A DNA stretch of 64,000 nt. Origin: Parasphingorhabdus flavimaris (GTDB lineage Bacteria > Pseudomonadota > Alphaproteobacteria > Sphingomonadales > Sphingomonadaceae). Numbering within the stretch: position 1 is the first letter of the stretch; the number at the start of each line of letters is the position of its first letter. Below, one piece after another: positions 37,359-52,527 of the stretch. The position numbers were made by a program, and so were the translations under genes. The notes below the pieces were generated by a model. The model was not told the origin of the DNA. It did no database searches and saw only the letters and a list, made by a program, of their open reading frames with translations. The stretch is taken from assembly GCF_013371215.1 (NCBI RefSeq), contig NZ_JABWMH010000005.1:62001-126000 (forward strand), written 5' to 3'.

Positions 37359-39538
<2,180 letters not shown>

Positions 39539-39543
39539 TCACC

Positions 39544-40476
39544 GTGGCCGGCACTGACCAGAAAACAATCGCTATTACCGGCGCGACCGGTTTTGTCGGC
39601 GGCCGGATGCTCGATCTGGTGGTCCGCGAAGGATATGTAGTCCGCGCATTGACCCGCCGCAAACAGGATGATCGGCCCAATGTCACCTGGGTACGCGGGG
39701 CGCTCGATGATCGAGCTAGCCTCGCCAGCCTGTGCGACAGCGCCGATATAATCCTGCATATCGCCGGAGTCGTCAACGCCCCGGACCGGGCCGGATTCGA
39801 GGCCGGAAATGTCGCCGGCACATTGGCGGTGATTGAAGCCGCCAAACAGGCCGGAACCAAGCGTTTCATCCATGTCTCATCGCTGGCGGCGACCCAGCCG
39901 AAGCTTTCGGTCTACGGCGAGACCAAAGCAACGGCGGAAAAGCTTGTCGCCACCAGCGGGCTCGACTGGACGATCATCCGCCCGCCCGCCGTCTATGGCC
40001 CCGGCGACGGCGAGATGCTGGAACTGTTCAAAATGGCGCGCTTGGGCTTTGTCACCCTGCCGCCCGATGCCGATGGCAGGTTGTCGGTCATCCATGTCGA
40101 AGACCTGTGCCGTGCGCTGCTCGCGCTGTTGCCGGAACAGGAAGAATTGACCGCCCAGACCTATGAAGTCGATGACGGCAAGACCGGTGGCTGGACCCAG
40201 GCCAGCTTTGCCAAGGCGATCGGCTGGGCAATCGGCAAGCGCATCACCACCATCGGTTTGCCAAAAATGCTGTTGCGCCTTGGTGCCAGAGCCGATTGTC
40301 TGATCCGCCGCGACAAGGCCAAGCTGACCGATGATCGGGTCAACTATTTTTGCCATGACGACTGGACGGTCGATCCGCAAAAAAGCCTGCCTAAAAAACT
40401 CTGGCGTCCACAGATAGAAACCCGTGAAGGGCTCAAGAATACCGCAAAATGGTATCGCCAGAACGACTGGCTGTAA
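39544..40476 (+). CDS. NAD-dependent epimerase/reductase, candidate ceramide reductase (CerR-like)
   Basis: A 310-residue extended-SDR protein. The NAD(P) motif is 'TGATGFVGGRMLDLV' near residue 12; 'HIAGVVNAPDRAGFEAGNV' follows and the active site is 'YGETKATAEKL' (YxxxK). The body resembles the atypical NDUFA9-like SDRs. In Caulobacter, CerR, an SDR of this general class, is encoded beside spt and acpR and reduces 3-ketoceramide; the equivalent position here supports the same role by inference. GTG 39544 is the only start between the proB stop and the NAD motif. It lies 5 bp after proB. Confidence 0.75.
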   Translation: MAGTDQKTIAITGATGFVGGRMLDLVVREGYVVRALTRRKQDDRPNVTWVRGALDDRASLASLCDSADIILHIAGVVNAPDRAGFEAGNVAGTLAVIEAAKQAGTKRFIHVSSLAATQPKLSVYGETKATAEKLVATSGLDWTIIRPPAVYGPGDGEMLELFKMARLGFVTLPPDADGRLSVIHVEDLCRALLALLPEQEELTAQTYEVDDGKTGGWTQASFAKAIGWAIGKRITTIGLPKMLLRLGARADCLIRRDKAKLTDDRVNYFCHDDWTVDPQKSLPKKLWRPQIETREGLKNTAKWYRQNDWL

Positions 40477-40482
40477 GTTTGT

Positions 40483-41001
40483 TCACATGACCGGCCCGGC
40501 CAATTGTTCGAATATATAGGCTATGAAGGTGAGCGTTAATCCGGAAAGAAAAACCCGATAGGCCCAGCCCAGAAACCGGTATTTCTTGCGTTCGAGAACC
40601 AGACCCATTTGATAGATATCACGAAGCATCGCGCGATAGGTTGATTCCTGACTGAGCAATTCCTTCTCCAGCAGATGATCGATGAATTCGTCTTCGCTGA
40701 GCTTCGAAAATCCCCCGAAAAACAGCATATTTGGCGAATTGTCCTTCCACGGCGTGACCGACGGCATCACCGCCAGAGCAGCAAGTCCGGCAGATCCGAA
40801 CGCGGAGATGGCGAGGATGAGGAGCGGCAAGGACATATTGCCGGCCTGACTTTGACCAACGGCAAGGGTGAACACCACAAATGTCGCACCAATCAGCATA
40901 TTCGCCTTGTTATCGGCCATTACACTCAACTGCACATGGTGGCGCTGAGTGGTGCCGAGCGCATAAACGACTTCGTCCGGCCATTTGTTGCCGTCATCCA
41001 T
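40483..41001 (-). CDS. Pycsar-effector-family membrane protein (PycTM / DUF5706), no cyclase nearby
   Basis: A 172-residue membrane protein of the Pycsar effector (PycTM) family. The conserved N-terminal 'VMADNKANMLIGATFVVFTL' leads into helix 1; helix 2 is 'LLILAISAFGSAGLAALAVM', followed by 'NMLFFGGFSKLSEDEFIDHL', the helical 'YRAMLRDIYQMGLVLERKKY', and helix 3/4 'FLSGLTLTFIAYIFEQLAG'. In true Pycsar systems this protein sits beside a pyrimidine cyclase and depolarises the membrane on infection. No cyclase or cyclic-nucleotide gene exists in the window; instead it lies between a CerR-like gene and acp-spt. Its role here is open. Confidence 0.82.
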   Translation of the reverse strand: MDDGNKWPDEVVYALGTTQRHHVQLSVMADNKANMLIGATFVVFTLAVGQSQAGNMSLPLLILAISAFGSAGLAALAVMPSVTPWKDNSPNMLFFGGFSKLSEDEFIDHLLEKELLSQESTYRAMLRDIYQMGLVLERKKYRFLGWAYRVFLSGLTLTFIAYIFEQLAGPVM

Positions 41002-41164
41002 AAACTACTCTCCGAAAAGAAAAACACGATATGGCGGAAGAGTGGCAGAAAGCTTGCAATCGGGCAAGACAAGGCACGCATTGTGCCGCTTTTGCGCCTT
41101 ATTCGCTTGCCAATGGTGCTCATGTCTTGGCAAAGGTCGGGAACAGCAAATTTGAAAGCATATT

Positions 41165-41410
41165 ATGGCAAATCGCGAAGACATCATGGCAAAGATCAGC
41201 GAACTGATTGGCCCGTTCAACAACAAGGGCGTCGCCTTGACGCCGGAAACGACCTTTCAGGGCGATCTCGAATGGGACAGCCTGACGGTCATGGATTTTG
41301 TCGCCGCTGTCGAAGATGAATTCGACATCATCATTACGATGAACATGCAGGCCGATATTGAATCCGTCGGCCAGCTCTCCGACGCTGTCGCAAAGTTGAT
41401 GGAAAACTAG
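41165..41410 (+). CDS. acyl carrier protein, sphingolipid-type (AcpR-like)
   Basis: An 81-residue carrier protein with the phosphopantetheine serine Ser39 in 'LEWDSLTVMDFV'. It differs from housekeeping AcpP ('DSLD'-type), and 'FDIIITMNMQADIESVGQL' replaces the usual helix III sequence. Its place 91 bp before serine palmitoyltransferase matches the dedicated carrier of alphaproteobacterial sphingolipid loci, which supplies the acyl chain. A second in-frame ATG at 41186 (MAKISELI) is possible. No acyl-ACP synthetase gene is present in this window. Confidence 0.88.
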   Translation: MANREDIMAKISELIGPFNNKGVALTPETTFQGDLEWDSLTVMDFVAAVEDEFDIIITMNMQADIESVGQLSDAVAKLMEN

Positions 41411-41420
41411 AGCCCGACAC

Positions 41421-41492
41421 CCGTTCGCCCTGAGCTTGTCTAAGGGTCGCACGAGCGGGTGGTTCGCATTTCGACAGGCTCAGGACTAACGG
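41421..41492. repeat. palindromic intergenic repeat (REP-like), copy 1
   Basis: An imperfect inverted repeat of two 26-bp arms separated by 20 bp, lying in the 91-bp gap between acp and spt. The outermost bases are CCGTT...AACGG; the inner arm reads CCTGAGC and GCTCAGG. It can form a long hairpin and could modulate the acp/spt ratio. A degenerate relative lies at 52541-52609. Confidence 0.75.
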
Positions 41493-41501
41493 AAACAAAG
41501 A

Positions 41502-42701
41502 ATGACCGATCTACTCAGTAAATTCGACCCGCTGATTCACGAGCGCGAGACGCTTCTGGCCACCGGCGTCAAGGACCCCTTCTCGCTGGTCATGGAAGAG
41601 GTGATCTCGCCGACCGTCGCGATCTGCGAAGGCAGGGAAACCATTTTGCTCGGCACCTATAATTATATGGGCATGACCTTTGACGATGACGTTCGCCAGG
41701 CCGGCCTGAAAGCGCTCGAAGAATTCGGGTCGGGCACCACCGGCAGCCGCGTGCTCAACGGAACCTACAGCCTGCACCGCGATTGCGAGGAAGCGCTCAA
41801 GGAATTTTACGACATGGACCACGCGATGGTCTTCTCCACCGGCTATCAGGCCAATCTGGGGATCATCTCGACGCTCGCCGGCAAGGGGGATTATGTGATC
41901 CTCGACATCGACAGCCATGCCTCGATCTACGACGGCTGCGCGATGGGCAATGCCGAAATTGTCGCCTTTCGTCACAATGATGTCGAAGCGCTGGAAAAAC
42001 GCCTGAAGCGCCTGCCGCCCGAAGCCGGGAAACTGGTTGTCCTGGAAGGCGTCTATTCGATGCTGGGCGATGTTGCGCCGCTCAAGGAAATGGTCCGCAT
42101 CTGCAAGGAAAACGGCGCGATGGTGCTGGTCGACGAAGCCCACTCGATGGGCTTTATCGGTGAAAACGGCCGCGGCGTCTGCGAAGCGCAGGGCGTGATC
42201 GACGATGTCGATTTCATCATCGGCACGTTCAGCAAGAGCGTCGGCACGGTCGGCGGCTTCTGCGTCTCCAACCATCCGAAAACCGAAATATTGCGGCTGG
42301 TCTGCCGCCCCTATGTGTTCACCGCCAGCCTGCCGCCCAGCGTGATGGCAACGGCAAGCACCTCGATCCGCAAGCTGATGCACAGCGGCAACAAGCGCGC
42401 CCATCTCTGGGAAAATAGCAAGAAGCTCCACCAGGGCCTGCGCGATCTCGGCTTCACCCTCGGCACACCCGAAGCGCAAAGCGCGATCATCGCGGTGATC
42501 ATGCCCGATCTCGAAAAAGGCGCGATGATGTGGCAGGCACTGCTGGCAGAAGGGCTTTATGTCAATCTCGCCAGACCGCCAGCGACACCGGCCAACATGA
42601 CCCTGCTCCGCTGTTCGCTTTGCGCGGAACATACGAGCGAGCAGGTCGACCAGATATTGGGCATGTTCGAAGCGGCCGGGAAAGCGGTCGGGGCTATTTA
42701 G
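41502..42701 (+). CDS. spt: serine palmitoyltransferase
   Basis: A 399-residue soluble alpha-oxoamine synthase that condenses serine with an acyl thioester to 3-ketosphinganine, the first sphingolipid step. Visible are 'GSGTTGSRVLNGTYSLH' (about 77-92), 'DIDSHASIYDG' with His139, 'VDEAHSMGFIG' with Asp211 and His214, and Lys245 in 'GTFSKSVGTVGGF', which binds PLP. The sequence is close to Sphingomonas SPT. It follows the dedicated acyl carrier protein across a palindromic repeat and is followed 2 bp later by a tiny membrane protein gene. Confidence 0.95.
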   Translation: MTDLLSKFDPLIHERETLLATGVKDPFSLVMEEVISPTVAICEGRETILLGTYNYMGMTFDDDVRQAGLKALEEFGSGTTGSRVLNGTYSLHRDCEEALKEFYDMDHAMVFSTGYQANLGIISTLAGKGDYVILDIDSHASIYDGCAMGNAEIVAFRHNDVEALEKRLKRLPPEAGKLVVLEGVYSMLGDVAPLKEMVRICKENGAMVLVDEAHSMGFIGENGRGVCEAQGVIDDVDFIIGTFSKSVGTVGGFCVSNHPKTEILRLVCRPYVFTASLPPSVMATASTSIRKLMHSGNKRAHLWENSKKLHQGLRDLGFTLGTPEAQSAIIAVIMPDLEKGAMMWQALLAEGLYVNLARPPATPANMTLLRCSLCAEHTSEQVDQILGMFEAAGKAVGAI

Positions 42702-42703
42702 GG

Positions 42704-42967
42704 ATGCCGCCGCTTAATCCTTTGCGATGGCACTGGATTATAGCGGTCATATTCTTGCCAGCACTTGCATTGCTCGCGGGATTGGTTCTCGGACAACGTA
42801 GCGCAGCGATAATAATGCTCCCCTGGCCCTTGTGGCTGGCGTGGCGTTTTGACAATCAGTCCGGTACATTCCTGATGCTGGCGATATTGGTTTATATCGT
42901 ATTTGCGGTCATCGCTTTTCTACTGGCAGGACTGGTTGCGATTTCTACTTATGCTTCCGTTAGCTAA
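42704..42967 (+). CDS. small membrane protein coupled to serine palmitoyltransferase
   Basis: An 87-residue hydrophobic protein with two or three transmembrane helices (about residues 10-29, 34-47 and 55-81). ATG 42704 lies 2 bp after the spt TAG, with AGGG immediately before it, so it is almost surely translated by coupling with spt. I recognise no family. The layout recalls the small membrane subunits that regulate eukaryotic SPT, but that is only an analogy and no sequence similarity is claimed. Codon positions look coding; confidence that it is real is moderate. Confidence 0.62.
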   Translation: MPPLNPLRWHWIIAVIFLPALALLAGLVLGQRSAAIIMLPWPLWLAWRFDNQSGTFLMLAILVYIVFAVIAFLLAGLVAISTYASVS

Positions 42968-42980
42968 GGCGGCTGACAAT

Positions 42981-43268
42981 TTATCGCGCATTGCGATCAT
43001 CAGCTTCCACAAATCGCCGCAGCGCAGCGTTGATCCGGGTTTGGTACCCTTTGCCCGACTGCTTGAACCAGTGCAGCACGTCGGCATCGAGCCGCAAGGT
43101 CACCTGTTCCTTGACAGGTCGGTAAAATTTGCCCCTCTCGGCAGCAGACCAGTCGGTCTCTTCGGGGGCATCGGAAAGATCGATATCCTCATCCCGCATC
43201 GCTTCCAGTGCGACCAGTTCCTTCTCCAGCTTGGAGGCGGGTTTTTCAGATATCTTCTTCATAAACAT
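42981..43268 (-). CDS. brnA: BrnA-family antitoxin (ribbon-helix-helix)
   Basis: A 95-residue antitoxin. The C-terminal 'VKEQVTLRLDADVLHWFKQS' and 'GYQTRINAALRRFVE' form the RHH DNA-binding domain typical of BrnA, following a charged N-terminal toxin-binding region. The start ATG 43268 lies inside the end of brnT (overlap 23 bp); ATG 43262 is an equally good alternative. BrnA neutralises BrnT and represses the operon. The pair interrupts the spacing between the spt region and the enoyl-CoA hydratase gene, suggesting insertion. Confidence 0.9.
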   Translation of the reverse strand: MFMKKISEKPASKLEKELVALEAMRDEDIDLSDAPEETDWSAAERGKFYRPVKEQVTLRLDADVLHWFKQSGKGYQTRINAALRRFVEADDRNAR

Positions 43269-43518
43269 GTCTCTCAAATGCGGTCGCTTTTCTGGCACTG
43301 ATAATCCTGCCACCGCTTTCATCGTCGAAATAAGTATGGGCCACCAGCAGCGTTGCGGTGCTCACCCGGCCGATTGTTAGCCAGCGGTTGCCATCAGGAT
43401 GGGAGTCCGGTTGACTCAGGTGCAGCGGATCAGCAAAAACCAGAACCGCCAGTTCAAACGAAACACCATGTTTCGCCTTGTTGGCAACCGCCTTGCGTTG
43501 ATCCCAGCGCCACTCCAT
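43246..43518 (-). CDS. brnT: BrnT-family ribonuclease toxin
   Basis: A 90-residue toxin with the BrnT consensus: 'WRWDQRKAVANKAKHGVSFE' at the N-terminus (FEWDxxKxxxNxxKHGVSF in the family), 'ADPLHLS', and the C-terminal 'GGRIISARKATAFERHVYEE' with the basic/acidic RelE-like active residues. BrnT cuts mRNA and is inhibited by BrnA. ATG 43518 sits only about 10 bp from the -10 element of a strong promoter, so the transcript is probably leaderless. It is co-translated with brnA. Confidence 0.9.
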   Translation of the reverse strand: MEWRWDQRKAVANKAKHGVSFELAVLVFADPLHLSQPDSHPDGNRWLTIGRVSTATLLVAHTYFDDESGGRIISARKATAFERHVYEEDI

Positions 43519-43520
43519 TT

Positions 43521-43556
43521 GTAACTACAAATATGTAACTACGAGCAATTTGTCAA
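43521..43556 (-). promoter_or_regulatory. brnTA promoter with direct-repeat operator
   Basis: Read on the minus strand: TTGACA (43551-43556), a 17-bp spacer, then TATTTG (43528-43533), a near-consensus sigma-70 promoter. The 8-bp word GTAGTTAC occurs twice, at 43535-43542 between -35 and -10 and at 43521-43528 at the start of transcription. BrnA is an RHH repressor, so these repeats are a plausible autorepression site. Confidence 0.7.
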
Positions 43557-43571
43557 TAGCGGAACATATCT

Positions 43572-44366
43572 ATGACCAACTCTATTCTCATCGAACAGCG
43601 CGGCGCGATTGAAATATTGACGCTCAACCGCCCCGACAAGCTCAACACGATGAACGAGGAGATGATCTTCGCGCTGCAGGACTATTTCCGCGGCCTGCAG
43701 AAACGCCACGATATCCGCGTGGTCCTGTTCCGCGCCGAAGGCCGCGCCTTTTGCGCGGGCCTCGATATCGGCGGCTGGAAAAATGATGGTTCTCGGGGGC
43801 AGGTCCAGCATGTCTGGAACACCCAGCGTTCGATCGCCACGGTGATGCAGCTGATGCGGCAATGCCCGCAGCCGATTATTGCGCTGGCGCAAGGGGCTGC
43901 TTGCGGCGGCGGTTTCTCGCTGTTGCTCGCCAGTGACGTGCGCTTTGGCGCGCCGTCGCTGAAGATGAATGCGGCCTATATCAAGATCGGTCTCGGTGGC
44001 TGCGATATGGGATCGAGCTATTTCCTCCCGCGCATGGTCGGCGCATCGATTGCGTCGGAACTCATTCTGACCGGCCGTTTCATCCATGCCGAGCGGGCAG
44101 AAAAACACGGCCTGATCAGCGAAGTCGTCGAAGAGAGCAAACTGCTCTCTACCGGCCTGTCACTGGCGGAAGAAATGCTCGACACGGCGCCGATGGGCCT
44201 GCGCCTGTCGAAGGATGCGTTGAACCGCAATATCGATGCGCAGAGCTTCGAGGCGGCGCTCGCCATCGAGGACCGGCAGCAGGTGATGCTGTCGATGACC
44301 GAAGACAGTCGCGAGGCGGCCAAGGCGTTTTTTGCCAAGAGGAAACCCGACTACAAGGATCGGTAG
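43572..44366 (+). CDS. enoyl-CoA hydratase/isomerase family protein
   Basis: A 264-residue crotonase-fold protein. Motifs are 'LNRPDKLNTMNEEM', the oxyanion loop 'EGRAFCAGLDIGGW' and 'GAACGGGFSLLLASDVRFG', then 'GGCDMGSSYFLPRMVG'. The usual second catalytic Glu/Asp positions are replaced by Gly/Asp in the last motif, so hydratase activity is not certain; isomerase or hydrolase activity is possible. It starts 53 bp from the brnT gene on the opposite strand. It could feed acyl chains for sphingolipid synthesis, but no direct evidence exists. Confidence 0.88.
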   Translation: MTNSILIEQRGAIEILTLNRPDKLNTMNEEMIFALQDYFRGLQKRHDIRVVLFRAEGRAFCAGLDIGGWKNDGSRGQVQHVWNTQRSIATVMQLMRQCPQPIIALAQGAACGGGFSLLLASDVRFGAPSLKMNAAYIKIGLGGCDMGSSYFLPRMVGASIASELILTGRFIHAERAEKHGLISEVVEESKLLSTGLSLAEEMLDTAPMGLRLSKDALNRNIDAQSFEAALAIEDRQQVMLSMTEDSREAAKAFFAKRKPDYKDR

Positions 44367-44368
44367 CA

Positions 44369-44423
44369 GTTCGTCATCCTGAAACAAGTTAGCTGCGCTT
44401 GTCTTCGGCTCAGAATGACGGAC
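44369..44423. repeat. palindromic intergenic repeat, second type
   Basis: An imperfect inverted repeat with arms built on GTTCGTCATCCTGA and TCAGAATGACGGAC around a 25-bp centre. It directly follows the enoyl-CoA hydratase stop and precedes a convergent gene, so it may act as a terminator-like hairpin. Its arm sequence differs from the other repeat type in this window. Confidence 0.65.
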
Positions 44424-44440
44424 TCATTTGGACGACTGGC

Positions 44441-45358
44441 TCACTTGATCGCCCCACCGGCAATCAACCGCGGCAACATCGTCAAAGCCCCCAGGATCGG
44501 CCATTTGCGTTGCCACGGCCTGATCTCGTAATCGGTCCCGGCGTGCCGGTTGATTTTCCACGCCAGATAATCGATGCCGCCGGCATAGGTGGCCGAAGCC
44601 TTGGCCAGTCTGGCAAGGGTGAGCAATTTGCCATTGCGCCGCAATTGCCGCCATCTTTTCTCGACCGCGTCGCGCGAGGCGATTATCTTGAGTGGCTTGC
44701 CCTGCGTCCTGTTGCGCTCGGCGATTGCCGCCACCACAACGGGTCCAAATCGCGCATATCGTTCGGGATCGGCATCGACGACGGAATCGGAGCGGTCCTT
44801 GCGCTCGGCGCGCAATTCGGCGCCATAGGTCAGTTCAAAGCCCCGTTTCCAGAGATCCTCGATACTATGTTCCGCGCCGATATCCATCATCGGGAAGCTC
44901 ATGTCGAACAGGGTGATCGCGGCGCCTTCGATCGCCTCGACCGCTTGATTCTGCGCGGTCTCGTCCGCCTGCCAGACCAGACGCGAGGGCTGCGCAAAGC
45001 GCGCCCATACGCTGACCGCGCTGGCGGTAATCCGGTTCAGCCTGTAAAAGTCGTCCTCGCTCAGCACCGCCACCTTGGCGATCAGCCCGTCATGCTCCGC
45101 CGGGAACACATTCGGCGGCAACCGCCTGTTCGCACCCACCAGCCAGCTCTTGCCATAAGCGGCCTCGTAACCGGAAACGATCAGATAGAAATCGAGCATC
45201 TGTCCGTCGAGTTCGGTGGTCCGCAGGCAGGAGCCGTAAAATAATACCGACCGTGACGCCTCACCATATTGCGCTGCAATGGATGCGGCAAAAGCCGCAA
45301 CCCGTTTATCGACGGGCTGGGCCAGCTCTTGTGCAATTAATGACTTGAGTTCGCTCAC
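44441..45358 (-). CDS. nucleotidyltransferase-like protein, possible TAM41-type cytidylyltransferase
   Basis: A 305-residue protein. 'VLFYGSCLRTTELDGQMLDF' near residue 39 has the Gly-Ser...Asp spacing of the nucleotidyltransferase fold, and 'ANRRLPPNVFPAEHDGLIAK' resembles the TAM41 CDP-diacylglycerol synthase class. A helical C-terminal half follows, with several Arg/Lys residues and an amphipathic tail 'WPILGALTMLPRLIAGG' that may bind membrane. The family call is weak (no tool check). It lies 15 bp after the lipid kinase gene in the same direction, so the two form an operon. Confidence 0.6.
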   Translation of the reverse strand: MSELKSLIAQELAQPVDKRVAAFAASIAAQYGEASRSVLFYGSCLRTTELDGQMLDFYLIVSGYEAAYGKSWLVGANRRLPPNVFPAEHDGLIAKVAVLSEDDFYRLNRITASAVSVWARFAQPSRLVWQADETAQNQAVEAIEGAAITLFDMSFPMMDIGAEHSIEDLWKRGFELTYGAELRAERKDRSDSVVDADPERYARFGPVVVAAIAERNRTQGKPLKIIASRDAVEKRWRQLRRNGKLLTLARLAKASATYAGGIDYLAWKINRHAGTDYEIRPWQRKWPILGALTMLPRLIAGGAIK

Positions 45359-45373
45359 GCGACACGTCCTAGC

Positions 45374-46348
45374 TCAAGCGGCGAGCCGAAGGAAGGACAC
45401 TGGTTTGGTCGATTTCAGCACGATCGGATGGCCGGGCTGGGCGGAGAATAGCTCCCCGTCCATCAGCACGTTGCTGCCCTCGCCCTCGATCCGGATCATG
45501 TCACCGCGTTCCAGATGGATGCCCTTCTGGACATTCTTGCCCAGCCGGCCGAAAATGACCGACAGCAGAAACCGCACGATGGCGCCGGCTTGCTGATCAA
45601 TCGCGAGAAACTGCATTCGCCCGATCGCATTCTTGTTCCGCATCGACCGTTTCATCAGCAAAAGCCGTTCGAGCGTCGTCACGATAAGCACGGCAAAATT
45701 GCCTTGGAACTGGCCATCGCGGATCAGCGATATCTTGATCGGTGTCGACCGCTTGGGCAAAAATTTCGCCTTGATGCCAAATAGCACCGACGCGAGCGCC
45801 GCGAAGACCGTCAGCACATGGGCCGCCGCATTGGGCAATCCGAGCGGATAGATCTTGTGCCGGCAATAGAGAATGAACTCCGACAAGCCCGCGCCGCCGA
45901 GAAACATGCCGAGCACGACCTTGCTGTCCTTGCCGCCATCGGACAGGGCGATCAGCTCGCGGTCGACCAGATGTTCGTGCAAATCATGTTTGGCCAGCTC
46001 GACGATCCGCTCGAGCGCCTTGAGCGGATTGCCTTCCGATCCGAGGTCGAGCGCGATCAAATTGGTCTTGCCGTTGGGCAGAACGGCAACCGGCGGGGGA
46101 TTGTCCCCGAAATGGCCGCCCTGGTATAATTCGGTCAGCGCTGCCTGCACCGTGCCGTCACCGCCATTGATGACCAGCACCTTCGGCTTCACCCGGGCAA
46201 TGGTTTCCAGAGCCTTGGCAATTTCGTCGACATGGTCGACTTCATAATGGAAAACATCGCTGTTTTTGACGCAGTAAGACCGAACGTCCGGCAATATCGC
46301 CCGGTTCCCGGTTGAGTTGGGATTTGAAAGAAGTGCGACATTTGCCAT
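45374..46348 (-). CDS. diacylglycerol-kinase-like lipid kinase, candidate ceramide kinase
   Basis: A 324-residue lipid kinase of the DagK/LCB5 class. The nucleotide-binding motif is 'INGGDGTVQAALTEL' (about residues 60-74), 'AVLPNGKTNLIALDLG' replaces the usual PxGTxND loop, and 'MDGELFSAQPGHPIVLKS' is the C-terminal D-G-E motif. Caulobacter ceramide kinase (CpgB) belongs to this class and lies beside spt. With serine palmitoyltransferase nearby, phosphorylation of ceramide or sphingoid bases is the likely role, though diacylglycerol remains possible. It precedes the nucleotidyltransferase-like gene by 15 bp. Confidence 0.78.
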   Translation of the reverse strand: MANVALLSNPNSTGNRAILPDVRSYCVKNSDVFHYEVDHVDEIAKALETIARVKPKVLVINGGDGTVQAALTELYQGGHFGDNPPPVAVLPNGKTNLIALDLGSEGNPLKALERIVELAKHDLHEHLVDRELIALSDGGKDSKVVLGMFLGGAGLSEFILYCRHKIYPLGLPNAAAHVLTVFAALASVLFGIKAKFLPKRSTPIKISLIRDGQFQGNFAVLIVTTLERLLLMKRSMRNKNAIGRMQFLAIDQQAGAIVRFLLSVIFGRLGKNVQKGIHLERGDMIRIEGEGSNVLMDGELFSAQPGHPIVLKSTKPVSFLRLAA

Positions 46349-46380
46349 TATTGGGCCCTATCCCCGCGAACAGATTTGCA

Positions 46381-46863
46381 TCATCTGTATTTCATGCTGA
46401 TGTTGATTGACTTGACTTCATTGCCGACGTTGAACGCGGTTTTCTTGTAGCTCGGTTTGCCGAGATTGAAGATATTGATGCTCGGGTTGTTCGACATGCC
46501 GCCGCCATCGCCAAATATGTCGGTCTTGCCATTGCCGTTAATGTCGTGGCGGATCGCAACCGCATAAGTTCCGGAAGAAGGTACCGGCAGACAGAATTGC
46601 ATGTTCCCGGCCTTGGCGGGAGCCTCGACCCGGTGGAGCCATGCGCCGGTCTTCAGCCACTCTGACGACGTACCGGGATAGGTCTGCACCCGCATCTTGC
46701 CGCTCGATTCCTTGACGCCGCTGACATTGACCAGAACGGCCGGGCCAGCGCCCGCCTTGCATCTGCCAAGATCATTGGAAATCACCTGCCCGCCCGCCAA
46801 TGCCGGGGCAGAAGATAGCAAAATTGTGGTCGACAATGCGATGGATGCTGCAAATTTCAACAT
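46381..46863 (-). CDS. DUF2141 secreted protein
   Basis: A 160-residue protein with a signal peptide (about 1-24, ending 'PALAGG') and a DUF2141 domain: 'LVNVSGVKESSGKMRVQTYP', 'CLPVPSSGTYAVAIRHDING', 'GNGKTDIFGDGGGMSNNPSI' and 'YKKTAFNVGNEVKSINISMKY'. The NGNGKTD stretch looks like a calcium-binding turn. Function is unknown. The start ATG 46863 follows AGGAG at 10-bp spacing; a longer open frame upstream is not coding. It lies 32 bp before the lipid kinase start and may be transcribed with it. Confidence 0.85.
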   Translation of the reverse strand: MLKFAASIALSTTILLSSAPALAGGQVISNDLGRCKAGAGPAVLVNVSGVKESSGKMRVQTYPGTSSEWLKTGAWLHRVEAPAKAGNMQFCLPVPSSGTYAVAIRHDINGNGKTDIFGDGGGMSNNPSINIFNLGKPSYKKTAFNVGNEVKSINISMKYR

Positions 46864-46988
46864 GACGTAGTAACTCCTAGTCGTTATACCCGCGCCATTA
46901 CTCCGGCTCGGACAAGAATCAGCCCCCGATCTGCCTATGGCTATGGATTTGATTTGCGGCGAAAACATGGTGAGAGGGCGACAACAAG

Positions 46989-48200
46989 TTGAAACTGCTG
47001 ACTTCCACCGATCGCTACTTGGCGAAATTGATAGCATTGCCGTTATTCAGCACGCTGGTGATCGCCGCGATGCTTCTGGTGCTCGAAAAAATGCTCCGTC
47101 TGTTCGACTTTGTCGCGGCCGAAGGCGGCCCGGTCAGCGTGGTCTGGCGGATGCTGGCCAATTTGATTCCGGAATATCTGTCGCTCGGGATACCGATCGG
47201 CCTGCTGCTCGGCATCCTGCTCGCTTTCCGCCGGCTTGCCCTGAGTTCCGAACTCGATGTTTTCAGAGCGGTCGGCCAGGGTTACGGGCGACTGCTCCGA
47301 GTGCCCTATTTATTCGCAATTGGCCTGATGCTCGTCAATCTGACGCTGGTCGGGTTCATCCAGCCGCTTTCGCGCTATTATTATGAAGAACTGCGTTTCG
47401 AATTGCGTTCGGGCGCGCTTGGCGCCTCGATCAAGGTCGGGGAGTTCACCAATCTCGGCAACCGCATGACCCTGCGGATCGAGGAAAGCCGCGACAATGG
47501 CACCAAGTTGAGTGGCATATTCGTTCGCGCCGAAAACAAGAAGGAACAGACCGTATCGGTCACCGCGAAAAGCGGTCAGTTTCTGGCGACCGACGATCCC
47601 GACACGATCATCCTGCGTCTGACCGACGGGGTGCTGGTCCACGATGCGCCCAATTACAAGAAACCGAGAATTCTCAGCTTCTCCAACCACGACCTGCCGA
47701 TCGATCTGCCCGACATCGAGACTTTCCGCTCTCGCGGCGGCAAGGATCTGGAATATACTATTCCCGAACTTGTCCGGGTCGGGATGGACGAAAAACGGCC
47801 GCTGGCCGAACGCAACGAGAGCCGTTCCAATTTCCATTTCCGCATGGTCGAAGTGGTGATGATGCTGCTGATGCCGCTGCTGGCGGTGGCCCTCGCGGTG
47901 CCGCCGAAACGATCGACATCGGCGCTGGGCGTGTTTCTGTCGATCGTGATGATCGTGACCTATCACAAGGTCAACGAATATGGCGAGGATGTCGGCGCCC
48001 TGGGCCTTGTCGATCCCATCATCGCCCTGTGGTTGCCCTTTGCCCTGTTCGCCGCCTTGATCATCTGGATGTATCATGTCGCCGCCCACGTACCGGGCGG
48101 TCAGCCGATTGGCGCGCTGGAAAAGGCTTTCTCCAAATTCGGCGGCGTGTTCAAGGGCCTGCTCAATTTTAATCGCAAACGCGCTTTGATCAAGGAATAG
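46989..48200 (+). CDS. lptF: LptF, LPS-type export permease
   Basis: A 403-residue YjgP/YjgQ-family permease. It has three N-terminal helices, a periplasmic beta-jellyroll ('GAKVGEF'-type strands around residues 140-255) and three C-terminal helices. LptB2FG extracts lipid A from the inner membrane in Gram-negatives. Start is TTG 46989 with AGAGGG about 8 bp upstream; no better ATG exists at the conserved start. Sphingomonads usually lack LPS and use glycosphingolipids, so here LptFG probably move a sphingolipid; this is supported by location within sphingolipid genes. It lies 6 bp before lptG. Confidence 0.9.
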   Translation: MKLLTSTDRYLAKLIALPLFSTLVIAAMLLVLEKMLRLFDFVAAEGGPVSVVWRMLANLIPEYLSLGIPIGLLLGILLAFRRLALSSELDVFRAVGQGYGRLLRVPYLFAIGLMLVNLTLVGFIQPLSRYYYEELRFELRSGALGASIKVGEFTNLGNRMTLRIEESRDNGTKLSGIFVRAENKKEQTVSVTAKSGQFLATDDPDTIILRLTDGVLVHDAPNYKKPRILSFSNHDLPIDLPDIETFRSRGGKDLEYTIPELVRVGMDEKRPLAERNESRSNFHFRMVEVVMMLLMPLLAVALAVPPKRSTSALGVFLSIVMIVTYHKVNEYGEDVGALGLVDPIIALWLPFALFAALIIWMYHVAAHVPGGQPIGALEKAFSKFGGVFKGLLNFNRKRALIKE

Positions 48201-48206
48201 CCGGAC

Positions 48207-49295
48207 ATGGATTTCTTCCCTTCCCGGACCCTCGCCATCTATATGGCAAAAATGTTCATTGTCCGCACGCTCGCGGTGCTGGCCTTGCTGGTGCTGGTGC
48301 TGCAGGCGCTCGATCTGCTGGGCGAAAGCGGCAAGATTCTCGCCTATGAAGGCAATGGCGAAGCCGAACTCTGGACCTATGTCTCATTGCGCGCGCCGCA
48401 ACTTGTCGCGCGCTTTCTGCCCTTTTCCGTACTGCTCGGGACCATCATCACGCTGGCGACGCTGAACCAGAATAGTGAAGTCGTCTCGATGAAGGCCGGC
48501 GGCCTGTCCGCGCACCAGATACTGGCGCCACTGATCGTGGCCAGCATGGGCGTCGCTTTATTCGCGTTCATATTCAACGAAACCATCGTCGCGCCGTCGA
48601 CCGCCCGCTTGTCGCAATGGGAGAAGGTCGAATTTGGCCCGATCCCGGCGGAGAGCAACATCCGCACCAATGTCTGGGTGAGGGACGGCAATAATCTGAT
48701 CAACGCACAATCGGTGACCGGCCGGGGTGCGGAAGTCGTGCTGCGGGATATAACGATTTACAACCGGACCGAAAACGGCCTCAAAAACCTGCTCCAGGGC
48801 GAAGAGGCCCGGTTCACAGGCTCCGCCTGGCTGCTGACCGATGTTACCCAGTTCGACGTCAGTACCGGAACCGAGGTAAAAAAAGCGGAACTGGTGGTCG
48901 GCGATTCGATCCGGCCGGACCAGTTCACCCTGACCAACGTCAGCGCCGACAGCCTGTCTATTTTCGCTTTGCATACCGCCATTGGTGAGCTGGAACAGGC
49001 CGGTCGCCCGACGATGAGCCTGAAGTCCGGCTGGTGGCACAAGATTTCCGGTCCGATGTCTTCCATCCTGATGCCCTTGCTGGGCGCGATTGCCGCTTTT
49101 GGTCTGGCCCGGTCGGGGCAGCTGTTCCTGAGAGCCGTGATCGGCATGGCGCTGGGCTTTGCCTATTTTGTCGCCGACAATTTCGCTCTCGCGATGGGCA
49201 CTATCGGCGCCTATCCACCGATACTGGCAGCCTGGGCACCGTTTCTGCTCTTCTTCCTGATCGGCGAAACCGTGCTGATCCGGACCGAGGAATAA
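48207..49295 (+). CDS. lptG: LptG, LPS-type export permease
   Basis: A 362-residue partner of LptF in the YjgP/YjgQ family. Six helices are arranged 3+3 around a periplasmic domain (about residues 125-245). Conserved 'FLPFSVLLGTIITLATLNQN' and 'VVSMKAGGLSAHQILAPLIV' around helix 2 carry the coupling-helix region that contacts LptB. With lptF it forms the heterodimeric core; lptB, lptC and lptA are not in this window. It converges with the desaturase gene (stops 4 bp apart). Confidence 0.9.
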   Translation: MDFFPSRTLAIYMAKMFIVRTLAVLALLVLVLQALDLLGESGKILAYEGNGEAELWTYVSLRAPQLVARFLPFSVLLGTIITLATLNQNSEVVSMKAGGLSAHQILAPLIVASMGVALFAFIFNETIVAPSTARLSQWEKVEFGPIPAESNIRTNVWVRDGNNLINAQSVTGRGAEVVLRDITIYNRTENGLKNLLQGEEARFTGSAWLLTDVTQFDVSTGTEVKKAELVVGDSIRPDQFTLTNVSADSLSIFALHTAIGELEQAGRPTMSLKSGWWHKISGPMSSILMPLLGAIAAFGLARSGQLFLRAVIGMALGFAYFVADNFALAMGTIGAYPPILAAWAPFLLFFLIGETVLIRTEE

Positions 49296-49299
49296 CGGC

Positions 49300-50400
49300 T
49301 CAGTTTCTTCCGGCGCTGCCGCGCACGAGACCGGTGATCAAGGTCCACAGACTGTCATGGTCCGCACGATAGAAATTGGACGTTTTCGGCAATTCGGCCG
49401 CCAGACGCCGGTGGGCCTCGCCCAGACTATGATAGGGAATACCCGGCAACAGATGATGCAACGCATGATAGCGCAGGCCTACCGGCGCCCATAACGCGGG
49501 CAAGGTCGCTGGCGGTGGCACGTTGACACTGTCGAGATATTGCGCGGTTACGCTCATCTCGTGGCCGTCATTTTCCCACAGATGCGCGACCAGTGTCCGG
49601 ATCTGGTTGAGAACAACGCTACCCGACATGACAGCCAGAAAGATCAGAAAGGCGCCCATCGGAATGATGTTGGTCGCGACCATGGTCAGCAAGGCAATCG
49701 CCCAGATGCTGGCCCCGATTTCACAGGCCAGCCAGCGGCGTTTGAGATCGCCCTCCGGTGCCTTGCGGCGAAAATCCGGGTTGATGATCAGGCCGGAATA
49801 GCGTTCGACCACAATCCGGCGCAGCGGCGGGATGACCGCCGAAAGCGGTGACAATATGGCATAGCGGAACAGCAGCGCGACCGGTGCCAGCGCCGCGACG
49901 ATCACGAACAGGGGGACCGACCAGGGTTTCATCAACGCGAGCGGCAAATATTCCGGGTCTTCCGCCGTGCCATATTTCTTGGTCCGGTGATGGATGCTGT
50001 GAATGCCTTCGTACATGAAGGAGGGAATCAGCATCGGCACGCCGAACAGGGCGTTCCAGGCGAAATGGAAACCGGGCAGTGCATTGCGCCGGATATGGGT
50101 CAGTTCATGGATGAAGCTGCCGGCCCGGTATAATGCCAATATCGCAACCAGACCGAAAAAGACGGCAAGTCCTGTGGACTGGCTGATGATCGCGCCGAGC
50201 AACGACCCATAGCCGATTGCGACCGACGCCAGAAAATCCGTCCAGTAAATCGCCGGCCTGGCCGCATTGAGATCGCGAGTCACCTTGGCAGCCGTGCGGA
50301 TCAGTTCATTATCCTCGGGAATGCGGACGCCCGCAGCAGCCGGGTTTGGATCCAGCGCGGCCTTCGGCACATTTTGGGGAGAGATGGTTGTCGAACTCAT
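49300..50400 (-). CDS. membrane fatty-acid/ceramide desaturase or hydroxylase
   Basis: A 366-residue membrane di-iron desaturase. Three His boxes are visible: 'HELTH' (residues 98-102), 'HSIHH' (134-138) and 'HALHH' (about 330-334), plus four to six transmembrane helices. The spacing is that of acyl-lipid or sphingolipid C4 desaturase/hydroxylases rather than acyl-ACP enzymes. The family also includes fatty-acid and alkane hydroxylases. Its location between lptFG and the GNAT acyltransferase suggests modification of a sphingolipid chain. Start ATG 50400 has AGG 6 bp upstream; a longer in-frame extension looks noncoding. Confidence 0.85.
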   Translation of the reverse strand: MSSTTISPQNVPKAALDPNPAAAGVRIPEDNELIRTAAKVTRDLNAARPAIYWTDFLASVAIGYGSLLGAIISQSTGLAVFFGLVAILALYRAGSFIHELTHIRRNALPGFHFAWNALFGVPMLIPSFMYEGIHSIHHRTKKYGTAEDPEYLPLALMKPWSVPLFVIVAALAPVALLFRYAILSPLSAVIPPLRRIVVERYSGLIINPDFRRKAPEGDLKRRWLACEIGASIWAIALLTMVATNIIPMGAFLIFLAVMSGSVVLNQIRTLVAHLWENDGHEMSVTAQYLDSVNVPPPATLPALWAPVGLRYHALHHLLPGIPYHSLGEAHRRLAAELPKTSNFYRADHDSLWTLITGLVRGSAGRN

Positions 50401-50543
50401 AAATACCTGCATGATTGTTGGACGGCCTAGAGCAACATATCGTGGCGACATCATGGCAAGGGCAAGACGGTTATGGCCCCGGTGCCCTTGACATTGCGCC
50501 ACAATTAACGCCACAGCCAGCCGCAAATACAGAAGGATAAACT

Positions 50544-51707
50544 ATGGTGGTCGGTCAAGATATAGTCATTCAGCCGGTCCGTACCAAGGCCCAGACCAAA
50601 GAGTTTATCGACATCGCCTATAAGCTCAACGCCTCGGACCCGCATTGGGTTCCGCCGCTGCGGACCGAAATGGCCAATCTGATTACGCCCGGAAAAAACC
50701 CCTTTTTCGACCATGCGAGGGTGCAGTTTTTTCTCGCTCGCCGGCAAGGCAAGGTGGTCGGACGAATCAGCGCCCATATCGACGAACTGGCCCTGCAACA
50801 GCCTCCGGAACAGGGCATGGGGCCGGGAACCGGCAACTGGGGCTGGATGGAAGCCGGCGACGAAGCGGTGATGCACGCCCTGATCCGCGCCGCCGAGAAC
50901 TGGTTGAAAGATGAAGGCATGACCCGGGTTCTTGCGCCAATCAGCATGTCGGTCTGGGAAGAACCGGGGCTGCTGACCCGGGGGCACGATCATAGCCCGA
51001 TGATCCTGATGGGCCACCACAACGCCGCCTACCAGGGCTGGATCGAGAATCTCGGCTATAAGGTAGCCAAGCGGCTGGTGACCTATCATTTACCGGTCGA
51101 AGACGGCTTTCCCGAACTGGTCAAGCGGATCGTTGCCTCGGGCGAGCGCAACAAGAGACTGACCATCCGCCGGGTGGACAAGAAACATTTTGACCGCGAT
51201 GCCGCGATCATCATGAATCTGCTGAACGATGCCTGGTCGAAAAACTGGGGATTTGTCCCGATGACCGACCGCGAGATTGCCCATGCCGGCAAGAGCCTGA
51301 AGCCGATTGTCCACGAACATCTGATCCGGATTGCCGAACTCGAAGGAGAGCCTGTCGCGTTCATGATGACACTGCCTAATATGAACGAAGTGCTCAAGAA
51401 CATGAACGGATCGCTATGGCCGTTCGGCTGGGCCAAGCTGCTCTGGTGGCTGAAATTCCCGAAATCCAATTCGATGCGTGTCCCGCTGATGGGCGTCAAA
51501 AAGGAACTGCAGAACAGCCGGCTGGCCAGCCAGATGGTGTTCATGCTGATCGAATTTATCCGCCGCGACGCAAAGCTCCATTTCGGAACCAAACACGCCG
51601 AAATCGGCTGGATATTGGAAGACAACCAGGGGATGGTGGCGATTGCCGAAGCGATCGAAGCGACGATCAACCGGGAATATCTGATCTACGAGAAGCCGAT
51701 CACCTGA
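50544..51707 (+). CDS. GNAT-type N-acyltransferase, candidate bacterial ceramide synthase
   Basis: A 387-residue protein of a GNAT-like family often (mis)annotated as dATP pyrophosphohydrolase. Conserved features are 'DPHWVPPLRTEM', 'NPFFDHARVQFFLARRQGKV', 'VGRISAHIDELAL', and 'HAEIGWILEDNQGMVAIAEA', the C-terminal acyl-CoA-binding region. Bacterial ceramide synthase (bCerS) of Caulobacter is an acyltransferase of this general type encoded in its sphingolipid locus. Given serine palmitoyltransferase nearby, N-acylation of a sphingoid base is the most likely role; family assignment is from memory of motifs. AAGGAT precedes ATG 50544. It diverges from the desaturase gene. Confidence 0.72.
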   Translation: MVVGQDIVIQPVRTKAQTKEFIDIAYKLNASDPHWVPPLRTEMANLITPGKNPFFDHARVQFFLARRQGKVVGRISAHIDELALQQPPEQGMGPGTGNWGWMEAGDEAVMHALIRAAENWLKDEGMTRVLAPISMSVWEEPGLLTRGHDHSPMILMGHHNAAYQGWIENLGYKVAKRLVTYHLPVEDGFPELVKRIVASGERNKRLTIRRVDKKHFDRDAAIIMNLLNDAWSKNWGFVPMTDREIAHAGKSLKPIVHEHLIRIAELEGEPVAFMMTLPNMNEVLKNMNGSLWPFGWAKLLWWLKFPKSNSMRVPLMGVKKELQNSRLASQMVFMLIEFIRRDAKLHFGTKHAEIGWILEDNQGMVAIAEAIEATINREYLIYEKPIT

Positions 51708-51738: not shown

Positions 51739-52527
51739 TCAAAGATCGAGATCAACCCAGGCCGGCGTATGATCACTGGCCTTTTCGCGGCCGCGATGTT
51801 CCTTGTCGACGCCACAGCTTTTCAAGCGGTCGGCCGCAAGCGGGCTGAGCAAGAGATGATCGATGCGAAAACCCTGGTCGCGTTGCCAGCCGCCGCTGCG
51901 ATAGTCCCAATAGGTCCATATCTGGCCTTCGGGATAAGTGACACCCAAAGCATCGGTCCAGCCGTCATTGAGCATCCGCCGGTAACCCTGACGGCTTTCC
52001 GGCTGCATCAAAGCGTCACTTTCCATCGCTTTGACCGAATAGACATCATTGTCGCGCGGAATCACATTATAATCGCCAGCCAGTACCGCCGGGACTTCTT
52101 CGGCCCAGATTTCCGCCGCACGCTCGCGCAATCTCTTCATCCAGCGCAGTTTGAAATCGAACTTGGGACCCGGATGGGGATTTCCATTGGGCAGGTAAAT
52201 GCTGGAAACTCTTACCTTCTTGCCGTCCTTGCCGGTGATATTGGCTTCGAGATAGCGACTATGCTCATCTTCCGGCTCGCCATCCAGACCGCGTTTGATC
52301 TCTTCGGGCGCCTGGTCGCGGGCCAATATGGCGACGCCGTTGAAACTCTTCTGGCCGTGCCAGATCGCGCCATAGCCGATTTTCTCAAATTCGTCGGCGG
52401 GAAAGCCGGCATCCTGCGTTTTTATTTCCTGCAGGCAGGCAACATCCGGTCTGGTCTCTTCGAGCCATTCCAGCAAACGCGGCAAGCGTGCCTTGATACC
52501 GTTGATATTATAGCTTGCGATGCGCAT
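51739..52527 (-). CDS. xth: exodeoxyribonuclease III
   Basis: A 262-residue AP endonuclease/exonuclease of the EEP superfamily, which repairs abasic sites. It begins 'MRIASYNINGIKARLPRLLE', then 'CLQEIKTQDAGFP' with the metal-binding Glu, 'VRVSSIYLPNGNPHPGPKFD', 'LAGDYNVIP' and 'WTYWDYRSGGWQRDQGFRID', and ends with the His of 'SDHTPAWVDLDL'. The length is standard. It lies convergent to the GNAT gene (31 bp) and precedes, on the same strand, a repeat-bearing spacer before erpA. Confidence 0.95.
   Translation of the reverse strand: MRIASYNINGIKARLPRLLEWLEETRPDVACLQEIKTQDAGFPADEFEKIGYGAIWHGQKSFNGVAILARDQAPEEIKRGLDGEPEDEHSRYLEANITGKDGKKVRVSSIYLPNGNPHPGPKFDFKLRWMKRLRERAAEIWAEEVPAVLAGDYNVIPRDNDVYSVKAMESDALMQPESRQGYRRMLNDGWTDALGVTYPEGQIWTYWDYRSGGWQRDQGFRIDHLLLSPLAADRLKSCGVDKEHRGREKASDHTPAWVDLDL

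Follow-up and report, generated by a model that had tools for sequence, protein, structure and literature searches.

We analysed a window of 64,000 nucleotides from Parasphingorhabdus flavimaris (order Sphingomonadales, class Alphaproteobacteria), corresponding to positions 62001-126000 of contig C5 (NZ_JABWMH010000005.1) in a genome of 3.35 Mb, 8 contigs and a completeness rating of 100%. Here, a sphingolipid locus contains lptF and lptG, the genes for the two permeases of the Lpt machine, in its usual form the lipopolysaccharide (LPS) exporter (Table 1). Both permeases match PF03739 over their full length and score above the respective equivalog cut-offs, lptF preceding lptG, and the pair is linked to cerR, acpR, spt and cerS. 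Homologues of both cpgB, recognised by its DagK domain, position and similarity, and cpgC of the ceramide (di)phosphoglycerate pathway are present as well. All the genes named by the initial annotation, namely those for a CerR-like reductase, an acyl carrier protein, serine palmitoyltransferase (SPT), a DagK-type kinase, a nucleotidyltransferase-like protein, LptF, LptG, a desaturase and a ceramide-synthase-like protein, were recovered at or near the places assigned to them, and its list lacked the PycTM open reading frame (ORF), the BrnTA pair, the enoyl-CoA hydratase gene and the DUF2141 gene.

Table 1. Features of the sphingolipid locus and its flanks, in window coordinates and in gene order.
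Feature	Position	Strand	Basis or remark
obgE-proB (flank before the locus)	37359-39538		
cerR-like, NAD(P)-binding ceramide reductase	39544..40476	+	PF01370, 7.5e-27
PycTM ORF (Pycsar effector-like membrane protein)	40483-41001	-	adjoins acpR
acpR, dedicated acyl carrier protein	41165..41410	+	PF00550, 7.1e-9; adjoins spt in most compared loci
spt, serine palmitoyltransferase	41502..42701	+	NF047603, 791.8 bits (NCBIfam equivalog cut-off 670)
BrnT toxin/BrnA antitoxin pair	42981-43518	-	between spt and the enoyl-CoA hydratase gene
enoyl-CoA hydratase gene	43572-44366		between the BrnTA pair and cpgC
cpgC homologue (CC_1161 position), predicted nucleotidyltransferase with Tam41-like fold	44441..45358	-	position and sequence
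cpgB homologue, DagK-type (ceramide) kinase	45374..46348	-	PF00781, 2e-14; in the cpgC-lptF interval as in Caulobacter (L150)
DUF2141 protein (CC_1157 position by order)	46381..about 46869 (start uncertain)	-	PF09912, 3.4e-22
lptF, sphingolipid type, TTG start	46989..48200	+	TIGR04407, 249.7 (cut-off 230); trees; FRxRG motif
lptG, sphingolipid type	48207..49295	+	TIGR04408, 300.3 (cut-off 240); trees
membrane fatty acid desaturase/hydroxylase	49300..50448	-	PF00487, 3.5e-26
cerS homologue, GNAT-like bacterial ceramide synthase	50544..51707	+	PF00583, weak, 1.5e-5
endonuclease/exonuclease/phosphatase-domain gene (flank after the locus)	51739-52527	-	

The genome showed no match to LpxC or LpxB, the two enzymes by which we searched for the lipid A pathway (lpxA, lpxD, lpxK and the 3-deoxy-D-manno-octulosonic acid (Kdo) genes were not searched), and this gene search gave no indication of lipid A synthesis. 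LpxC was likewise unmatched in all 147 genomes sampled from the order (8 families, 56 genera), and LpxB in all 20 that were examined, P. flavimaris included. Both searches matched the positive controls E. coli and Caulobacter, and among 34 genomes of the class outside the order LpxC was matched in 20, of which 19 (all but G165) also matched LpxB. Apart from these 19 LpxB matches, which score 242-352 bits, an LpxB-like match of 105 bits (E 1.4e-30) was seen at C16:40168-41214 of G190, a 1.6 Mb genome that is LpxC-negative and SPT-positive. Of the remaining parts of the Lpt machine, LptB, LptA, LptC and LptD were found in the P. flavimaris genome. Two PF03739 matches represent one lptFG pair, and there is one LptD, located in pepA | lptD-surA-pdxA-ksgA, and one LptC, encoded elsewhere in rpoN-lptB-lptA-lptC, where LptB was assigned by its ATP-binding cassette (ABC) domain and position. 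The LptC matches were weak, and 5 of 54 genomes gave none, so that a missing LptC says little. Across the order, an LptFG match (PF03739) was obtained in 144 of the 147 genomes, with positions listed for 131.

We calculated trees for LptF (62 rows), LptG (61 rows) and the joined pair (60 rows), in each of which one branch with a Shimodaira–Hasegawa-like approximate likelihood ratio (SH-aLRT) support of 100 parts an LPS type from a sphingolipid type (20 versus 42 rows for LptF, 20 versus 41 for LptG and 19 versus 41 for the joined rows). The LPS-type side consists of 20 rows, one for each LpxC-positive genome. The sphingolipid-type side holds every Sphingomonadales row included (20 LptF and 19 LptG, the LptG of G001 being cut by the sequence end) together with the other pair of every SPT-positive genome save G197, which has no pair, and G206, which has the LPS type only. 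The P. flavimaris pair thus falls outside the LPS-type clade, to which every one of the 20 LpxC-bearing genomes contributes a single row, and its LptF shares a clade with Caulobacter LptF2, a placement established for LptF only. Nine named LptF sequences from sphingolipid loci (Caulobacter, Solimonas, Hydrocarboniphaga and others, gammaproteobacteria among them) join the same side, which excludes enterobacterial LptF with a support of 97. Forcing the rows of the order beside the LPS type was rejected by the approximately unbiased (AU) test for LptF (p 0.007) and for the joined rows (p 0.0014). A loose form of the motif FRxRG in the carboxy-terminal half of LptF was present in 41 of 42 sphingolipid-type rows, in none of the 20 LPS-type rows and at 68 of the 80 named loci, and the strict form separated the two types by 38/42 versus 0/20. 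Judged by these trees, the pair is a member of a separate sphingolipid-associated clade and not a re-used LPS exporter. When rooted by the LptF/LptG split, the LptG tree groups enterobacterial LptG with the sphingolipid type (support 89) and LptF is not resolved (48), a rooting under which the alphaproteobacterial LPS type may be the divergent one.

In the sample of the order, SPT went unmatched in two of the 147 genomes. To a cut-off of E up to 1e-130, it was found in 27 of 172 genomes of the class, and 24 of these lie outside the order. All 24, together with 10 of the 145 SPT-negative genomes, were scored for LptFG and LpxC and make up the 34 genomes mentioned above. Where both SPT and LpxC are present (n=10), nine genomes carry two lptFG pairs, one of which is fragmented in G165 (five matches), and G206 carries one. 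Genomes with SPT and no LpxC (n=14) have one pair in 13 cases and none in G197, and those with LpxC and no SPT (n=10) have one lptF and one lptG in nine cases, far apart in G166, and two pairs in G162. Outside the order, the number of pairs therefore roughly equals the presence of LpxC plus the presence of SPT, with three exceptions among the 34 genomes. The contrast between the two SPT-positive groups has a Fisher p of 7.6e-6, obtained on related genomes and ignoring phylogeny. The second pair of the SPT-negative G162 (L069, C2:499400-502200) is LptFG-like and very divergent (75-89 bits); this aberrant pair was part of the first tree, was left out later and is counted here as the SPT-negative exception.

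spt and lptFG lie at most 15 kb apart in 85 of the 130 sampled order genomes that list both, compared to about 1.3 expected at random, the 130 genomes being related and the 85 linkages not independent events. Of the loci fetched around spt, 13 of 20 from the order, spanning seven of the eight families, also hold lptF, as do 16 of 24 from the class outside the order, where some of the remainder are on short contigs. A search of the collection with the sphingolipid-type LptF alignment yielded 274 relatives, from which 80 loci were kept: within the sequence available for each, 63 contain spt (over 250 bits), 75 cerS and 77 either of the two. A DagK homologue is present in two of the remaining three (L134 and L146), and L084, of 3.8 kb, has none of these genes. 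The same arrangement of the locus is seen in further families of the order and among named sequences of Caulobacter, Azospirillum, gammaproteobacteria and Sphingomonas parapaucimobilis. The LPS-type pair often has a different place. In seven of ten lptD loci fetched from LpxC-positive genomes it stands directly before lptD, with pepA on the far side in five, and the other three show lptD without an adjoining LPS-type pair. None of the 13 LpxC-negative lptD loci, that of P. flavimaris included, has lptFG beside lptD, and in ten of them pepA abuts lptD. Most simply read, the pepA|lptD junction lost its LPS-type pair along with lipid A, and the sphingolipid-type pair was kept.

The protein encoded by cpgC gave no match in Pfam or NCBIfam searches. 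It is 31-44% identical to 19 homologues from spt or lptFG loci, L150 of Caulobacter among them, and a nucleotidyltransferase-like GS...LDFY stretch is kept across all 20. Pfam searches over these 20 members returned only three single matches at chance level (best E 0.017), none of them supported, and a single weak match, to a nucleotidyltransferase (E 0.031), came from searching the PDB with a profile. A structure model with a predicted local distance difference test score (pLDDT) of 91.2 has as its best Foldseek match Tam41, the mitochondrial-type cytidine diphosphate (CDP)-diacylglycerol synthase (PDB 7ecd, E 5.2e-7, template modelling (TM) scores 0.55/0.60; a further Tam41 structure is 6ig4). 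The two proteins are only 13% identical, and in contrast to Tam41 the substrate of CpgC would be ceramide-1-phosphate. As the model most resembles a CDP-diacylglycerol synthase, CpgC likely activates ceramide-1-phosphate as CDP-ceramide. A nucleoside diphosphate-activated ceramide has already been suggested for CC_1161 from an InterPro match (PMC11324152, cited here and below from its available sections).

Taken together, the products of lptF and lptG are very probably the two permeases of a sphingolipid-specialised ABC extractor of the LptB2FGC type, where we infer from sequence the cargo, the transport direction and the service of this cargo by LptB, LptC, LptA and LptD. Ceramide would be made by the products of the neighbouring spt, acpR, cerR and cerS genes, and the CpgB kinase and the Tam41-like CpgC may add a phosphate-linked head group to it. 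LptFG, acting with LptB, LptA and LptC from the rpoN locus, would extract the complex sphingolipid from the inner membrane, to be passed along the usual bridge and LptD, from the pepA/surA locus, to an LPS-free outer leaflet. The initial annotation had arrived at a sphingolipid as the load of the Lpt machinery from the gene content, and the missing LpxC and LpxB matches, the single pair, the separate clade and the synteny support it. Of the findings that it had held could overturn the idea, two were looked for: a full lipid A pathway did not appear in the genome, as far as LpxC and LpxB report on it (lpxA, which it also named, was not searched), and synteny of lptFG and spt does exist in relatives inside and outside the order, though not in every genome. 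We see an about even chance for a wider joint reading, according to which the whole Lpt bridge including LptD is now a sphingolipid exporter throughout the order; the LptFG pair would have arisen with the CpgC pathway in LPS-bearing ancestors, become the sole pair upon the loss of lipid A and the LPS-type pair, and switched to glycosphingolipid where cpgC was lost.

A narrower cargo has to be considered, in which the pair carries a phosphosphingolipid only, that is ceramide phosphoglycerate (CPG) or CPG2 as in the published proposal for Caulobacter LptF2G2 (PMC11324152), and glycosphingolipids use another route. In the window, cpgB and cpgC indeed lie between spt and lptF, and in the 34 class genomes outside the order the co-occurrence is perfect: CpgC was found in 22 of 22 genomes with a sphingolipid-type pair and in none of the other 12, two of which are SPT-positive and without that pair. 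Outside the order, the pair thus follows the head-group pathway rather than ceramide synthesis as such, in agreement with that proposal. Inside the order, CpgC was found in 99 of 147 genomes, the 48 negatives being an upper bound because at most 15 candidates were scored per genome. Of these 48, however, 46 keep a PF03739 match, and the five that are represented in the trees (G005, G012, G133, G015 and G025) are all sphingolipid-type. Likewise, neither cpgB nor cpgC had a homologue at E up to 10 in a 29 kb stretch of S. parapaucimobilis that contains lptFG and to which this search was confined. Because so many genomes keep lptFG without a detected cpgC, the cargo in the order probably includes a lipid other than CpgC-made ceramide phosphoglycerate, and we regard the phosphosphingolipid-only alternative as rather improbable. 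Sphingomonads carry glycosphingolipid instead of LPS, and from this general biology glycosphingolipid is likely the best candidate cargo in the order. Some sphingolipid formers, such as Sphingomonas koreensis, are described as devoid of LPS (PMC11324152).

We give very little credence to the idea that the pair, as a relic or as a permease of general use to the envelope, came to stand among the sphingolipid genes by accident, as the initial annotation had conceded for a housekeeping region. The locus does follow obgE and proB, and linkage was not shown in 45 of the 130 order genomes, yet the 85 linked genomes far exceed the random expectation, 77 of the 80 kept loci carry spt or cerS, other Alphaproteobacteria and also Gammaproteobacteria show the same association, the copy number outside the order varies with SPT and LpxC, and the sphingolipid-type pair is kept where the LPS-type pair is absent. 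Similarly remote is a lipid A made by an unrecognised route and still moved by this pair. The restriction of the searches to LpxC and LpxB leaves room for it, but LpxC went unmatched in all 147 order genomes and LpxB in the 20 examined, by searches that detect them outside the order and in the controls, and the 20 order genomes of the trees contain no LPS-type pair.

Returning to the sphingolipid extractor, several observations weigh against it. Within the order, 16 of 147 genomes show three to five PF03739 matches (the extras unexamined), one shows a single match and three show none. The 45 genomes without shown linkage comprise 25 with spt and lptFG farther apart on one contig and 20 with the two on different contigs, and lptF is absent from seven of the 20 stretches fetched around spt in the order; the contig of family f3 stops about 0.5 kb past spt, and among six f1 relatives only L003 is linked. 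For LptG alone, the AU test did not reject a position of the order rows beside the LPS type (p 0.085), and the labels of the two types were assigned after the first tree had been seen. Outside the order, G206 combines SPT and LpxC with the LPS-type pair only, and G197 has SPT, with no match in the LptFG and LptD searches, so that ceramide synthesis alone does not require an lptFG pair. G197 (L028) is a 5.4 Mb single contig with spt, cerS, cerR and acpR in which LptFG, LptD, LptC, LpxC, LpxB and CpgC were unmatched, and its envelope is possibly built without Lpt. A loss of lipid A contacts by residue was also considered and rejected: at the positions of K34, K40 and K41, which we take to be the lipid A contact residues in E. 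coli LptG, the P. flavimaris protein has Q, G and E, which do not discriminate, as the LPS-type proteins of the class mostly lack those lysines too.

The closest described arrangement is that of Caulobacter crescentus, CC_1168-CC_1152, with LptC2, LptF2 and LptG2 (PMC11324152), which shares cerR-acpR-spt, cpgC and cpgB on the opposite strand, lptF-lptG and the position of cerS. In C. vibrioides DSM 9893 (L150) we found the order cerR, acpR, spt, cpgC(-), cpgB(-), lptF, lptG, cerS, in agreement with the gene names CC_1164 to CC_1154 (PMC11324152) and the cpg names in the available sections of PMC12275187. Identity to the L150 proteins is 29.3% for the P. flavimaris LptF and 28.5% for its LptG. 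Caulobacter is, however, an LPS maker, the C. vibrioides control matching LpxC, and its LptF2G2 is a second pair (PMC11324152), whereas P. flavimaris has one. Compared to the LPS extractor LptB2FGC of E. coli (PDB 6mhu, 6s8g), LptF and LptG of P. flavimaris match the solved subunits over most of their length and are likewise accompanied by LptB, LptC, LptA and LptD encoded elsewhere, but they occur in a genome without LpxC or LpxB match, and LptF carries the FRxRG motif unseen in the 20 LPS-type rows; enterobacterial LptF stays outside the sphingolipid clade and enterobacterial LptG groups weakly with it. Within the order, Sphingomonas parapaucimobilis YK209 (NZ_CP155753.1) shows obgE-proB-cerR-acpR-spt-(ATP-binding protein)-lptF-lptG-desaturase-cerS, with identities of 66% for LptF, 58% for LptG, 55% for CerS and 71% for SPT, and differs in the missing cpgB and cpgC. 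The replicon NZ_CP155753.1 (L183), 385 kb long and deposited as a plasmid, bears obgE, rplU and rpmA alongside the sphingolipid/lptFG locus and therefore looks like a chromid or a piece of chromosome.

The neighbouring genes recur to different extents. cerR opens cerR-acpR-spt also in L150 and in S. parapaucimobilis, and in L150 a cerS homologue (319 bits) follows lptG at the place of cerS (CC_1154) in PMC11324152. A desaturase homologue adjoins lptG also in L001-L003 and in S. parapaucimobilis, and the desaturase/hydroxylase is a candidate modifier of ceramide. DUF2141 homologues precede lptF in several loci of the order and in many named loci, and the protein is probably outside the mechanism. 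PycTM homologues adjoin acpR also in L004, L005 and L006.

In 2024, the route of bacterial sphingolipids to the outer membrane was stated to be unknown (PMC11324152 and the available sections of PMC11087976), with no flippases or sphingolipid transporters identified so far according to the latter. LptC2, LptF2 and LptG2 were proposed in the same year for phosphosphingolipid transport in Caulobacter, transport itself not being tested in the available sections, and the orthologues of Sphingomonas wittichii and Zymomonas mobilis are given there as scattered over the genomes (PMC11324152). This was the only work we found to link LptFG to sphingolipid transport in a literature search that did not extend to bioRxiv preprints and most subscription papers. 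The Caulobacter proposal is thus already in print, and the present analysis adds to it that the order is LpxC-free with a single type of pair, that the two clades go with a pattern of copy numbers, the state of the pepA|lptD junction, and that lptFG and cpgC are uncoupled inside the order.

P. flavimaris, in which neither LpxC nor LpxB is matched and lptFG and LptD each occur once, removes the competing LPS cargo and offers a clean test of sphingolipid transport. If our proposal is true, the Lpt machine is not specific for LPS, and annotators could distinguish exporters of LPS from those of sphingolipids; at present, the pair of S. parapaucimobilis is annotated as LPS export. If the joint reading of the entire bridge is true as well, the outer-membrane translocon of these bacteria would accept a lipid quite unlike LPS.

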